Assembly: GCA_003131315.1 (NCBI GenBank)
Contig: PKUV01000167.1
Location: 104,061-150,031, forward strand
DNA: 45,971 bases
DNA from: Acidobacteriaceae bacterium
GTDB taxonomy: Bacteria > Acidobacteriota > Terriglobia > Terriglobales > Acidobacteriaceae
Direction of reading: 5' to 3'
A program made the translations under genes and the position numbers. Positions 29,161 through 32,733 of this stretch are shown one piece after another (position 1 is the first letter of the stretch; every line of letters starts with the position of its first letter). Under the pieces are notes generated by a model, which had not been told where the DNA came from, searched no databases, and worked only from the letters and a program-made list of their open reading frames with translations.

Positions 29161-29501
29161 AAGTATCTTGCTGGCGGTGTTTTCGAGGGACGTACAGCAA
29201 CGTCCTTCGTGCCTGGCCTTTAATGGGCAATCGCGAGGCCGATTGCAATGTGGTGAAGCCTATTAGTTACAATGACTTGCATATGGGCGGCGCGGGGCGC
29301 GAAGGGACAACTTGGCCCAACGGCTGGGCTCGATGCCGCCGCCGAGTCCGTAACTCATTTGAAACAAAGGCCGGGCGGGCAGGGAAGCCTGCTTTGGGAC
29401 AAAGTGGCCCGATCCAGCGCTGGCGGACTCCTTCAAACTACCGGTGCCGCCGCGATGAGTCCGGGTCACAATGACCCCAGTAGCCCGCAGCAACCTTAGT
29501 G
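29161..29501. other. 341-base intergenic region upstream of the protease
   Basis: No convincing gene or RNA was found. It should hold the protease promoter on the minus strand. A short palindrome, GGGTCACAATGACCC (29463-29477), lies near the end of the aroF gene and could be an operator or a weak hairpin; it has no T-tract. A short open frame on the plus strand (29223-29474) has no family resemblance. Confidence 0.4.
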
Positions 29502-30536
29502 TTATGCCTGCGCCGGGCCTGGGCCGCGACCGAGCACGGGACGTAAAGGGGCACTCAATCCGCGCATCACGCTCTCGAACTGTGGGATGTCGAGAGACTG
29601 AGGCCCGTCGGAGAGCGCGCGCTCCGGACAGGGATGCACCTCGACAATGATGCCGTCCGCTCCGACGGCAATCGCAGCGCGAGAAACCGCTCCGATCAGA
29701 CTCTGCTTGCCGGTGCCATGCGACGGATCGGCGACCACTGGCAGGTGCGAGAGTTCTTTGGCGAGAGCGACGGCGGCAAGATCGAAAGTGTTGCGCATGC
29801 CGGTTTCAAAAGTCTTAATTCCGCGCTCACAAAGGGCGACCTGATCGTTTCCTCCAGAAAGCAGGTATTCCGCCGCCAGCAGCCACTCCTTCACCGTGGC
29901 CGAGGGGCCGCGCTTGAGCAGAATCGGCTTTTTGACGGTCGCGAGCCTGCGCAGCAACGCAAAGTTCTGCATGTTGCGCGCGCCGACCTGGAGCATATCG
30001 GCGTACTCACAGATCAGGTCCACGTCCTCCGTACTCATAACCTCGGTCACAACCGGGAGGCCAGTGAGTTCACGAGCTTCGCGCAAAATCCTTAGCGCTT
30101 CAATTCCCAGGCCTTGGAACTCATACGGGGAGGTACGCGGTTTGTAGGCTCCGCCGCGCAGCATGGTCGCGCCCGCGCGTTTCACCGCTTGCGCAGTCTC
30201 CAGCAATTGCTCGCGCGACTCCACCGAGCAGGGGCCGGCAATCACGACCACTTCGGGGCCGCCGATCCTTACGCCGCCAACGTCGACCACCGACCGCTCG
30301 GGGCGGGTTTGAAGACTGACAAGCTTGAAGGGTTGGGCGATCGCGACCACGTTGTCCACCCCAGGCGCGACCGAAAGAGCCTCGATCTCATGGCGGCGCC
30401 CGCCGCTGCCGACTGCCGCAACGATGGTGCGCTCGGTACCACGGGTGACGTGTGGCTGGAACCCGGCTTCGCGGATGCGTTGAATAATGTGGTCGATCTG
30501 TTGTTCGGTGGCGCTGTCGGACATATTCACAATCAT
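29502..30536 (-). CDS. aroF: 3-deoxy-7-phosphoheptulonate (DAHP) synthase, AroA-I-beta type with regulatory domain
   Basis: A 344-residue enzyme condensing phosphoenolpyruvate and erythrose 4-phosphate, the first step of aromatic amino acid synthesis. Residues 1-70 form the ferredoxin-like regulatory domain known from Thermotoga DAHP synthase ([19 protein letters not shown]), which binds aromatic amino acids. The barrel follows, with [41 protein letters not shown] and DPSHGTGK. The ATG at 30536 is preceded by AAAGG. An upstream in-frame TTG at 30569 falls within a terminator stem and is rejected. A leader peptide rich in Phe, Tyr and Trp and an intrinsic terminator lie immediately upstream, suggesting attenuation in addition to allosteric control. 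Confidence 0.95.
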
Positions 30537-30560
30537 GGCGATGACCTTTCTATTTGCCGC

Positions 30561-30593
30561 CAAAAACAAAAGCCGCGATTCTATCGCGGCTTT
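30561..30593 (-). terminator. Attenuator terminator before aroF
   Basis: On the minus strand an 11-base perfect stem (30583-30593 with 30569-30579) and a 3-base loop are followed by TTTTGTTTTT. It ends 25 bases before the aroF ATG and begins 22 bases after the leader-peptide stop. CCGCC and GGCGG flank it and could extend the hairpin. Confidence 0.85.
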
Positions 30594-30614
30594 GGCGGAA
30601 TCTTTGAGCTGTCT

Positions 30615-30707
30615 CTATTGCCCTGGTGACTGGCTCCGATCCTGCACCTCCGCCGCGAATGGAAACCAATAGCGGCTAAACAGGCGGAAGGTGCTAAATC
30701 GTGTCAT
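30615..30707 (-). CDS. Aromatic-amino-acid leader peptide (candidate aroF attenuator)
   Basis: A 30-residue frame starting MTRFSTFRLFSRYWFPF: five Phe, one Tyr and one Trp in 17 residues, with Y-W-F adjacent at positions 13-15. It ends in TAG 22 bases before an intrinsic terminator that precedes the DAHP synthase gene. This arrangement matches classical ribosome-mediated attenuation. The leader's CGCGGCGGA (codons 17-20) can pair with parts of the terminator's ascending arm region (TCCG...CCGCGA), a possible antiterminator. The Shine-Dalgarno signal is weak (AAAGG, somewhat distant). Translation is inferred, not shown. Confidence 0.75.
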   Translation of the reverse strand: MTRFSTFRLFSRYWFPFAAEVQDRSQSPGQ

Positions 30708-30767
30708 AGAGATGTTGAACCGTAACCTTTGAAATACCGATTTCTTCGAAAACTGGTGGAACCGGGA

Positions 30768-30941
30768 TTACTGCGTCGTCCCTAGAGAACTGGCAACACT
30801 GGAGAACGCGTTGTTGGCATTGCCCCCGATTAGTTTCACAGTCCCGATCACCAATACCAGGATGACGGCGAGCATGACGGCATATTCAGCAATATCTTGC
30901 CCTTGGTCGTCCTTGCAAATATTGCGGAAAAACTGAACCAT
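30768..30941 (-). CDS. flp: Flp/Fap-type pilin
   Basis: A 57-residue small pilin. After a short polar leader (MVQFFRNICKDDQG) comes QDIAEYAVMLAVILVLVIG, the type IVb (Flp) prepilin pattern in which a TadV-like peptidase cuts after Gly and leaves Glu5-Tyr6, followed by one hydrophobic helix and a short polar tail. The start has an excellent GGAGG site six bases upstream. No tad genes or prepilin peptidase occur in the window, so it is an orphan here. It lies 60 bases upstream of the aromatic leader on the same strand. Confidence 0.88.
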   Translation of the reverse strand: MVQFFRNICKDDQGQDIAEYAVMLAVILVLVIGTVKLIGGNANNAFSSVASSLGTTQ

Positions 30942-30989
30942 AGATCCTCCGGCCCCAGGAATAAACTCCTCGGCAAACTTGTGTAGCTA

Positions 30990-31018
30990 ATAATGCCGAC
31001 TCGGACGGCGATTGTCAA
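30990..31018 (-). promoter_or_regulatory. Sigma-70-like promoter of flp
   Basis: On the minus strand TTGACA (31018-31013), a 17-base spacer and CATTAT (30995-30990) stand about 50 bases before the flp start codon. The -35 box is a perfect consensus. Confidence 0.65.
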
Positions 31019-31182
31019 TCGGAGCAAGAGTTGGTCTTGTCCACCGGCCGCACTCACGGCTGAAGTCGAAACTAAGCCACGGACAAGGCTTCCGAGCCTG
31101 TCACAAATCATGGGGCTTGCGTTCTACAGGGCTTCCGTGCGGAACCGTGCCAGCCTCTTTCCGTTTCTTGGGCAAACAAGAA

Positions 31183-32733
31183 CTACGGTTCTGTCGTGGG
31201 AGTACCTGACGATGCCCTCGGGGCCGCTGTATCGCTCACCAACTGGCGGGCGGATTGGGAAGCGTAGTCCAGCACGCGTCCCGGCAGCACTCCGAGGTAA
31301 AGCGTGAGCAGCACGCAAACTGCAATGGCGAGCGCTGCCGCGGTGGGCACAGGAGTAACGGGAACCTCGCCCCGTGGCTCACGCATGTACATCATGACGA
31401 TTATTCGCAGGTAATAATAGGCGCCCACGGCACTATTCAGCACCAGAATGATCGCCAAGCCAACCAGATTCGAATGCAGCGCGGCAGTCAACACGTAGAA
31501 CTTCGCGAAGAAGCCGCCAGTGATCGGAATACCGATCAAAGACATCAGGAAGAATGTGAAAGTCGCGGCCAGCACGGGGGACTTCCTGCCCAGGCCCGCG
31601 TAATCTTCGAGCGTGACGTACTTTTCGCCCGCGTTCGCGAAGTGGCTGACGACGGCAAACGCGCCTACGTTCATCGCAGCATAGGCGGCGGTGTAGAACA
31701 TCGCCGCGGACGTGCCCAGCGCCGGCTGTGCCGCAAACGCAGCGAGCAGATATCCGGCGTGGGCGATCGAAGAATACGCGAGCAGGCGCTTGACGTTGTT
31801 CTGCACCAGCGCTCCCAGATTTCCCAGCGTCATGGAAAGCGCAGCCGAGACCCAGATCAGCCAGAAGCGTCCGGGTGCGTTCGCTTCGAACATGACGCGC
31901 AGCAATACCGCGAACGCCGCCGCCTTGGGGCCGGTCGACATCAGTCCGACGACCGGCGCCGGCGCCCCTTCGTAGACGTCAGGAGTCCATACGTGGAAAG
32001 GTGCCGAGGCGACCTTGAAGCCCAAGCCCACGAACATGAGCGCCGTCGCAACATACGCCAGAACCGGTACGTTGCCGGAGTGCAGCACATGGCTGATCGC
32101 GTCAATGTTGGTGGAACCGGTCGCGCCGAACATGAGTGCGACGCCATAGAGAAAGAACGCCGTGGCGAACGATCCCAGTAGAAAGTACTTCAGCGACGAT
32201 TCGCTGCTCGATGCGTCGCGCCGCCGGAAGCCTGCCAGCACGTACGTCGAGATTGACGAGATTTCCAGGGCGATAAAAATAAGTACGAGTTCGATGGCGG
32301 ACGACATCAGGCACATGCCGACCGTGCAGAACAGGATTAGCCCGTAGTACTCCCCGGCGCGGATGCGCTGCACCGCCAAATATTCGTAAGAAGTGAGGAT
32401 GACTACGGCCGCAATCGCGATGACGAGGAAGTGAAAGAAGACGCTGAAGCCTTCCACCCGAACCATGTTCCAGAACGCGGTTCCGGGATACTGCGCCATC
32501 CAGAACGTCGACGCCAGCGCAACAAGAGTACCGATCAGTGCGATCGTGCCGAGCGACTGGTGGCTGCTTTCTTCGTCGAGCAGCGGGTCAACGACCATTA
32601 CCAGCATGCCGAAGAGCGAGAGCACCAGCTCCGGCAGGATGCGCATGTAGTCGGCGCCTTGCGGCAGCATGGAAGTCTGCACCTGCGCCAGCAGAACCGG
32701 TAATGAGTGCGAGAACGCCGTCATCATCATCAC
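31183..32733 (-). CDS. nuoN: NADH-quinone oxidoreductase subunit N
   Basis: A 516-residue antiporter-like, proton-pumping membrane subunit of complex I, last gene of the nuo operon. About 14 helices are visible. Typical text includes VLAGFRRRDASSSESSLKYF, SAPFHVWTPDVYEGAP and NNVKRLLAYSSIAHAGYLL with the pump lysines and glutamates. Four consecutive ATG codons open the gene within an ATGA overlap with the nuoM stop, so the exact first Met is uncertain by up to three residues. No convincing terminator is seen after it. Confidence 0.95.
   Translation of the reverse strand: MMMMTAFSHSLPVLLAQVQTSMLPQGADYMRILPELVLSLFGMLVMVVDPLLDEESSHQSLGTIALIGTLVALASTFWMAQYPGTAFWNMVRVEGFSVFFHFLVIAIAAVVILTSYEYLAVQRIRAGEYYGLILFCTVGMCLMSSAIELVLIFIALEISSISTYVLAGFRRRDASSSESSLKYFLLGSFATAFFLYGVALMFGATGSTNIDAISHVLHSGNVPVLAYVATALMFVGLGFKVASAPFHVWTPDVYEGAPAPVVGLMSTGPKAAAFAVLLRVMFEANAPGRFWLIWVSAALSMTLGNLGALVQNNVKRLLAYSSIAHAGYLLAAFAAQPALGTSAAMFYTAAYAAMNVGAFAVVSHFANAGEKYVTLEDYAGLGRKSPVLAATFTFFLMSLIGIPITGGFFAKFYVLTAALHSNLVGLAIILVLNSAVGAYYYLRIIVMMYMREPRGEVPVTPVPTAAALAIAVCVLLTLYLGVLPGRVLDYASQSARQLVSDTAAPRASSGTPTTEP

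Follow-up and report, generated by a model that had tools for sequence, protein, structure and literature searches.

The aroF gene of an Acidobacteriaceae bacterium (GenBank assembly GCA_003131315.1, contig PKUV01000167.1) is preceded by a short reading frame rich in aromatic codons and by an intrinsic terminator, which together probably constitute a ribosome-mediated transcription attenuator of the classic type; from the comparisons reported here, we give this reading a probability of about 0.88. The window, that is, the whole stretch of DNA that was analysed, measures 45,971 nucleotides, and the features of the locus are listed in Table 1 together with leaders from distant relatives. The comparisons show a conserved frame with its aromatic codons, the terminator, the mutually exclusive pairings and the target genes. 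What points to attenuation is the combination of an aromatic-rich upstream ORF, a terminator between leader and gene, an antiterminator that excludes the terminator (its covariation is weak), a leader hairpin with the control codons in its 5′ arm, and downstream genes that make the amino acids predicted to be sensed.

Table 1. Features of the aroF leader region in the window and aromatic leaders at distant loci
Feature	Position or locus	Strand	Basis or remark
Leader peptide ORF, 30 codons + TAG, MTRFSTFRLFSRYWFPFAAEVQDRSQSPGQ	30615..30707	-	ORF list; present upstream of 40/42 orthologues
aroF, 3-deoxy-7-phosphoheptulonate (DAHP) synthase with N-terminal ferredoxin-like domain; controlled gene	29502..30536	-	Pfam PF00793, PF18152; NF006421, TIGR01361 above cut-off
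AGAAAGG, probable aroF ribosome binding site, 8 bases 5′ of ATG	30545..30551	-	Read from sequence
Terminator hairpin, 11 pairs, AAAGCCGCGAT-AGA-ATCGCGGCTTT	30569..30593	-	Ascending arm 30593..30583 (holds segment 3); descending arm 30579..30569 = segment 4
Terminator T-tract TGTTTTT	30562..30568	-	Sequence
Leader hairpin P1, 5′ arm (segment 1), CCGCTATTGG, with Tyr13 and Trp14 codons	30666..30675	-	Alignment A2, pair counts
Leader hairpin P1, 3′ arm, CCATTCGCGG, overlapping segment 2	30653..30662	-	Alignment A2, pair counts
Outer leader stem, window clade: CACCTTCCGCC (30693..30683) with GGCGGAGGTG (30654..30645)	30645..30693	-	Minimum-energy fold
Segment 2, UCGCGGC, antiterminator strand within codons 17-19	30652..30658	-	Synonymous recoding test
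Leader before aroQ + pheA-like ORF	L215, L216		
Leader before pheA	L217, L218, L219		L218 start beyond contig end
Leader before aroQ	L220, L221		
Leader MNTGRQYFYFYYFYLK before another DAHP synthase	L224		

On the minus strand, a small gene (30941..30768), which we take to be pilin-like, is followed by the leader ORF (30707..30615), the hairpin with its T-tract (30593..30562) and aroF (30536..29502). The leader starts MTRFSTFRLFSRYWFPF, and its residues include five Phe, one Tyr and one Trp; 21 bases separate its stop codon from the terminator stem, and 25 bases separate the T-tract from the aroF ATG (30536). The initial annotation had described a 30-codon frame with this aromatic content before aroF and, 22 bases after it, a perfect 11-base hairpin with a T-tract ending 25 bases before the gene. 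Both the ORF and the hairpin agree with that description, the coordinates being right to within about a base and the gap between them being 21 bases, not 22. The presence of a leader and a terminator at aroF is confirmed. With seven aromatic residues in 30, where four window proteins have 8.6% (binomial P 0.012), the leader is only mildly unusual when taken alone, and the comparison with relatives therefore decides. Terminator-like sites in 29500-32500 are not in excess (three, against a shuffle mean of 3.1); the stem at the aroF leader is the longest of them, with 11 pairs against five in each of the others. No ribosome binding site was seen by eye 5′ of the leader ATG, and a promoter search of 29500-32500 gave no promoter-like site directly 5′ of the leader. 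The terminator is bordered on the minus strand by CCGCCAAA (30598..30591) and TTTGGCGG (30564..30557), and a longer stem over the T-tract could form after read-through.

A scan of contigs yielded 74 aroF-type loci, from taxa that include Acidobacteriaceae, Terriglobia and Candidatus Sulfotelmatobacter. Forty of these are Acidobacteriaceae-type orthologues, which with the window and L021 give 42 upstream regions; among the 74 loci, one is leaderless by eye (L072), one is cut at its start (L094) and the remaining 32 lie outside the leader count. The aromatic leader ORF and the hairpin are kept in 40 of the 42 regions, including one (L068) that was missed by the scripted start rule and added by hand. 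No leader element was found at L064, which is 81% identical, and a run of N takes out the 5′ part of the L070 region. This conservation is the decisive evidence that the observation in the window is beyond chance. The initial annotation had proposed a search for the leader frame and hairpin in close relatives as a check on its reading, and the check leaves that reading standing.

In most of the 40 leaders, an MTRF start and a core such as RYWF or YYWF are followed by Ala codons; the Tyr-Trp pair is lost in L036, L037 and L043. The terminator core consists of six successive pairs (C-G, C-G, G-C, C-G, G-C, A-U) in 40 of 40, and the next pair outward is G-C in 36 and G-U in four. Between the terminator and the aroF start, L057 and L061 carry ~100 extra bases, and those of L061 contain the inverted repeat CACCACGGAGGCAC...GTGCCTCCGTGGTG; the insertion may be a mobile palindromic repeat. 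A covariance model built from aroF leaders only (R1) matches at E < 1e-10 in 20 of the 24 genomes of the window's genus. In the genomes without such a match (G005, G011, G012 and G021), three of which are assemblies 71-85% complete, only paralogues of ~50% identity were seen and the orthologue was not.

Three competing pairings recur across the leaders: the leader hairpin P1 (CCGCUAYUGG with CCAGUAGCGG), the antiterminator (GUAGCGGCUC with GAGCCGCGAC) and the terminator. They were counted in an alignment (A2) of 46 of 77 leaders; 12 others were missed by the core/hairpin finder, 11 close relatives were untried and eight of the 54 found were omitted (L037, L048, L052, L055, L058, L059, L062 and L162). 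Of the 20 pairs of P1 and the terminator taken together, 12 have changed on both sides, and 88% of the cells are paired; none of 500 shuffles attains these values, and with the partner slid the paired share is at most 57%. P1 alone shows such changes in seven of ten pairs, on rows partly selected by the P1 core, and its conservation in A2 is biased upward because rows were dropped and partly chosen by that core. In the antiterminator, the core GCGGC/GCCGC forms its pairs in 43-46 of the 46 leaders; covariation there is weak, 12 of 500 shuffles attaining the score. Synonymous recoding was applied to a set that omits the near-duplicates L049 and L056 and holds trpB_L150 in the wrong frame (this leader is absent from the 80-leader frame count below). 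In this set, the antiterminator duplex ranks in the best 5% of 200 recodings for 30 of 47 aroF, 9 of 11 aroK, 2 of 2 aroQ, 5 of 7 distant and 1 of 14 trpB leaders, and the leader hairpin does so for 9 of 47, 3 of 11, 0 of 2, 5 of 7 and 9 of 14, respectively. For the leader hairpin, this test, with rows unselected by the P1 core, gives a weaker result (aroF 9/47) than the A2 pair counts.

The 201-nt region has a folding energy of -67.7 kcal/mol, whereas its shuffles average -53.6 (z -3.5), and none of the 200 does as well. Within it, UCGCGGC (30658..30652) complements GCCGCGA (30590..30584) of the terminator ascending arm, and the antiterminator duplex has an energy of -32.0 kcal/mol, against -20.4 +/- 3.6 in synonymous recodings, 0 of 200 being as strong. 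A possible antiterminator near codons 17-20 had been suggested by the initial annotation, and segment 2, in codons 17-19, bears this out. The leader hairpin of the window is equalled by three of 200 recodings, and the inner pairs of P1 are imperfect in the window itself. In folding without a ribosome, the ascending arm is paired with a probability of 0.43 in the window and of 0.35-0.99 across the 40 leaders, a spread that favours no single untranslated state. A stable structure in this region would also suit an RNA aptamer or a protein-bound attenuator (T-box, TRAP-like or riboswitch) beside an incidental ORF, a reading that we consider extremely improbable, given that Rfam has no match in the window at the gathering score (leaders and T-box families included) and none to 30500-30780 at E up to 1, that the consensus fold of the 40 leaders is the terminator only, and that the frame is rich in aromatic codons.

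Attenuation by a translating ribosome was simulated by folding, the edge of the ribosome being placed, by assumption, 13 bases from where the A-site codon begins. Upstream pairing of the ascending arm is more frequent with the A site on Phe, Tyr or Trp than with the A site 2-8 codons past the last of them, in 45 of 47 aroF, 11 of 12 trpB, 9 of 11 aroK, 1 of 2 aroQ and 7 of 7 distant leaders; the mean for aroF is 0.70 versus 0.45, a modest difference. We infer that the leader is translated, that ribosomes stall on it and that read-through into aroF changes in response. A ribosome would translate the leader while RNA polymerase transcribes it. When charged Phe-, Tyr- or Trp-tRNA is low, the ribosome would stall at F4, F7, F10, Y13, W14, F15 or F17 and open P1, which would leave segment 2 free to pair with segment 3; the terminator would then not form and aroF would be transcribed. 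With aromatic amino acids in good supply, the ribosome would move on over segment 2, segments 3 and 4 would pair and transcription would end before aroF.

The predicted element is not specific to aroF. The initial annotation had presented it as a control of DAHP synthase; aroF does carry it, and in relatives so do trpB, aroK and aroQ. At E <= 0.1, R1 matches 163 of 250 genomes of the family (61 of 79 genera), weak matches counted in, and some of these genomes have two full-length matches. In 40 R1 regions that were read, picked from the R1 lists in favour of two-match genomes and variety, the element stands before aroF (9), trpB (15), aroK (11) and aroQ (2, one of them followed by pheA). Because R1 was trained on aroF leaders only, the trpB, aroK and aroQ finds are independent for this model. 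Three weak or partial matches (L155, L161 and L163) were rejected on reading. Representative products matched TIGR00263 (trpB) above cut-off, PF01202 (shikimate kinase), PF01817 (chorismate mutase) and PF00800 (prephenate dehydratase); matches of L140 to the NCBIfam models of shikimate kinase stayed below cut-off, and the remaining products were named by eye or by tblastn against the representatives.

A second covariance model (R2) was built from 46 leaders of aroF, trpB, aroK and aroQ. With weak matches counted in, its hits at E <= 0.01 extend to 190 of the 298 genomes searched in the order and to 63 of 396 in the phylum. Thirty control genomes of other phyla gave five R2 matches at E <= 0.01, the best at 35.6 bits, and for this reason a match below ~36 bits was accepted only if its leader had been read. 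One of these five is a Phe-rich pheS leader (L241:1424-2770, in G723, the genome of the Anaerolineae locus L073); it ends YLFSFFFSFTGGRAPAGD and stands with a terminator hairpin before pheS (TIGR00468 above cut-off), probably a Phe attenuator in Chloroflexota. All 67 best-match loci (60 distinct by upstream sequence) precede aroF, trpB, aroK or aroQ, a figure that is not independent for R2, because its training rows were chosen knowing the downstream genes and many loci come from the same genomes. The 60 distinct loci divide into 28 before aroF, 22 before trpB, eight before aroK and two before aroQ; in six of them, the simple hairpin pattern was not found 5′ of the extrapolated gene start, and a leader is visible in each. 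The aroF gene is in pieces in L110 and is cut by the contig end in L129.

Over 80 leaders (at most the first 20 codons), Phe, Tyr and Trp account for 35.4% of codons in the leader frame, versus 6.7% and 10.3% in the other frames. The leader frame (frame 0) was in every case an open one, selected by aromatic content in the wider sets and, among the first 40 aroF leaders, by a start of the form M..RF or M..QF or by manual assignment. The lack of stops in frame 0 is no evidence, because this frame was selected as open. Phe is encoded by TTT in 128 of 166 leader codons; in four genes of the window the figure is 35 of 98. Within one 16-member clade, variability at the first, second and third codon positions is 0.121, 0.172 and 0.152; third positions vary no more than second, so this measure gives no protein-coding signature apart from RNA constraint. 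By eye, the ATG of many trpB and aroK leaders, and of many more distant aroF leaders, lies ~9-13 bases 3′ of the end of a sigma-70-like -10 element and has no visible ribosome binding site before it, which suggests near-leaderless mRNAs. A mere terminator of the pilin-like gene, with a chance frame in front of it, would suit two features: the aroF hairpin lies 3′ of that gene, also on the minus strand, and the sole promoter-like site on this strand in 29500-32500 (31018..30990) precedes the gene. Such an arrangement is highly improbable as an explanation, since homologous leader–hairpin units precede trpB, aroK and aroQ, many just below sigma-70-like promoters by eye, and since the aromatic codon enrichment is confined to the leader frame.

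The codon content of the predicted leaders fits the branch of the pathway, with Trp in aroF, trpB and aroK leaders and mostly without it in those of aroQ and pheA. Trp is present in 63 of 71 aroF, trpB and aroK leaders of the family versus two of eight aroQ or pheA leaders (L220 and L221), a comparison of related sequences that carries no P value. Nascent chains such as TnaC and those of the erm type are known to arrest the ribosome, and the leader peptide might likewise do so, sensing a bound aromatic amino acid or other small molecule and not uncharged tRNA. The recurrence of the peptide core RYW...AA among leaders of different genes is what such arrest would predict, but these residues fall on the RNA segments CGCUAYUGG and GCGGC, and this overlap accounts for them without a role for the peptide. 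Moreover, the distant leaders keep aromatic richness and not residue order (FYFYFYF, FYFYYFY), and arrest by excess product would switch on synthesis when it is unneeded; we regard this possibility as very unlikely.

Twenty further regions of the phylum were read, and eight of them, in families other than that of the window, have an aromatic leader (Table 1). The products of L216, L217 and L224 were confirmed by Pfam, and the other distant ones were named by eye. The remaining 12, all weak R2 matches (L222, L223 and L225-L234), were rejected on reading as unrelated. The distant DAHP synthase leader, L224, lacks a Trp codon; two tandem terminator-like hairpins follow its FYFYYFY leader, 5′ of the gene (L224:110-310, by eye). 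In the window's own genome, the element is known before aroF only, as judged from L002, L003 and trpB: the DAHP synthase paralogues L002 and L003 have no short ORF with at least three aromatic residues within 330 bases upstream, and trpB lies behind a trpF-like ORF with no leader immediately 5′. Two more loci (L004 and L005), for which the start was not placed, were left out of the paralogue check. The match to the genome's own trpB (G000:C140:136507-138216; L243 and L244) is split into two neighbouring pieces whose query ranges (14-361 and 181-401) overlap, as could arise from a partial tandem duplication or an assembly join. In L235 of this genome (G000:C140:132900-135000), a trpA-like ORF, a chorismate mutase-like ORF (both named by eye) and a second DAHP synthase stand consecutively.

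Acidobacteriota are abundant soil bacteria in which gene control has been little studied. A joint reading of the data, for and against which we see even odds, is that a single homologous family of Phe-Tyr-Trp attenuators was duplicated onto aroF, aroK, trpB and aroQ-pheA and now makes up an aromatic regulon that acts in cis in Acidobacteriota. It would act on near-leaderless mRNAs, do the work of the TyrR and TrpR repressors in enterobacteria and have codons tuned to the branch (Trp for the common pathway and trpB, mostly none for aroQ-pheA). An acidobacterial attenuator with a clear proposed input, output and mechanism could be checked by ordinary reporter tests, and the comparisons show a single family of such elements at several genes of one pathway.

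The frame, aromatic codons and terminator kept across genus and family, and the homologues before other pathway genes, support the initial annotation in its reading of an aromatic-leader attenuator. It also knew of no such case in Acidobacteriota, which holds for the literature searched: no paper on aromatic leaders in Acidobacteria is among the matches listed, in a coverage that leaves most subscription journals outside. Its placing of classic leader attenuation in Proteobacteria is too narrow for DAHP synthase, whose control by a leader peptide has been reported in Corynebacterium glutamicum (AroR) and proposed in Acholeplasma (uORFC-13-1). Within that literature, what is new is the phylum, the combination of Phe, Tyr and Trp and the set of homologous attenuators. 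Among sources available in part, one predicts an element before aroF of Shewanella (PMC2659441); the text seen of a paper on Actinobacteria names no DAHP synthase leader (PMC1262725), that of another describes leader genes at short distances in Acidobacteria and leaves aroF and DAHP unmentioned (PMC4833913), and that of a third mentions trpL only (PMC12125101). The title of a reference in PMC4046766 describes a leader peptide of C. glutamicum ilvBNC formed without a ribosome binding site.

The element can be set beside three known systems. The leader attenuators of Escherichia coli have a four-segment architecture. Those of trp, pheA and pheST (excerpted in PMC11802643) resemble the acidobacterial element in having regulatory codons in a leader ORF, competing pairings and an intrinsic terminator; the acidobacterial element differs in having no Rfam match, three amino acids in one leader, and other genes and another phylum. 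The Acholeplasma uORFC-13-1 motif, proposed from 24 representatives in Acholeplasma and environmental sequences, is, in the text available, a uORF with at least one Phe codon beside an apparent intrinsic terminator, exclusively upstream of aroF, and an older E. coli hypothesis is mentioned alongside it (PMC8632094). It shares with the present element an aromatic-codon uORF and a terminator before aroF; in that text, Phe is the sole residue named and other genes are not mentioned (PMC8632094). In C. glutamicum, aroF has a leader with Phe-Tyr-Phe (AroR) and is subject to attenuation, according to excerpts of PMC4046766 and of PMC11802643, the latter citing Neshat et al. 2014, and this review states that the attenuator responds to Phe limitation and not to Tyr (PMC11802643). 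Compared by description only, AroR-aroF is like the present case in that a short leader with aromatic codons attenuates a DAHP synthase, and differs in belonging to Actinobacteria and in having no Trp among the described codons. Unlike AroR-aroF, the acidobacterial leader joins Phe, Tyr and Trp codons and has homologues before other genes of the pathway.
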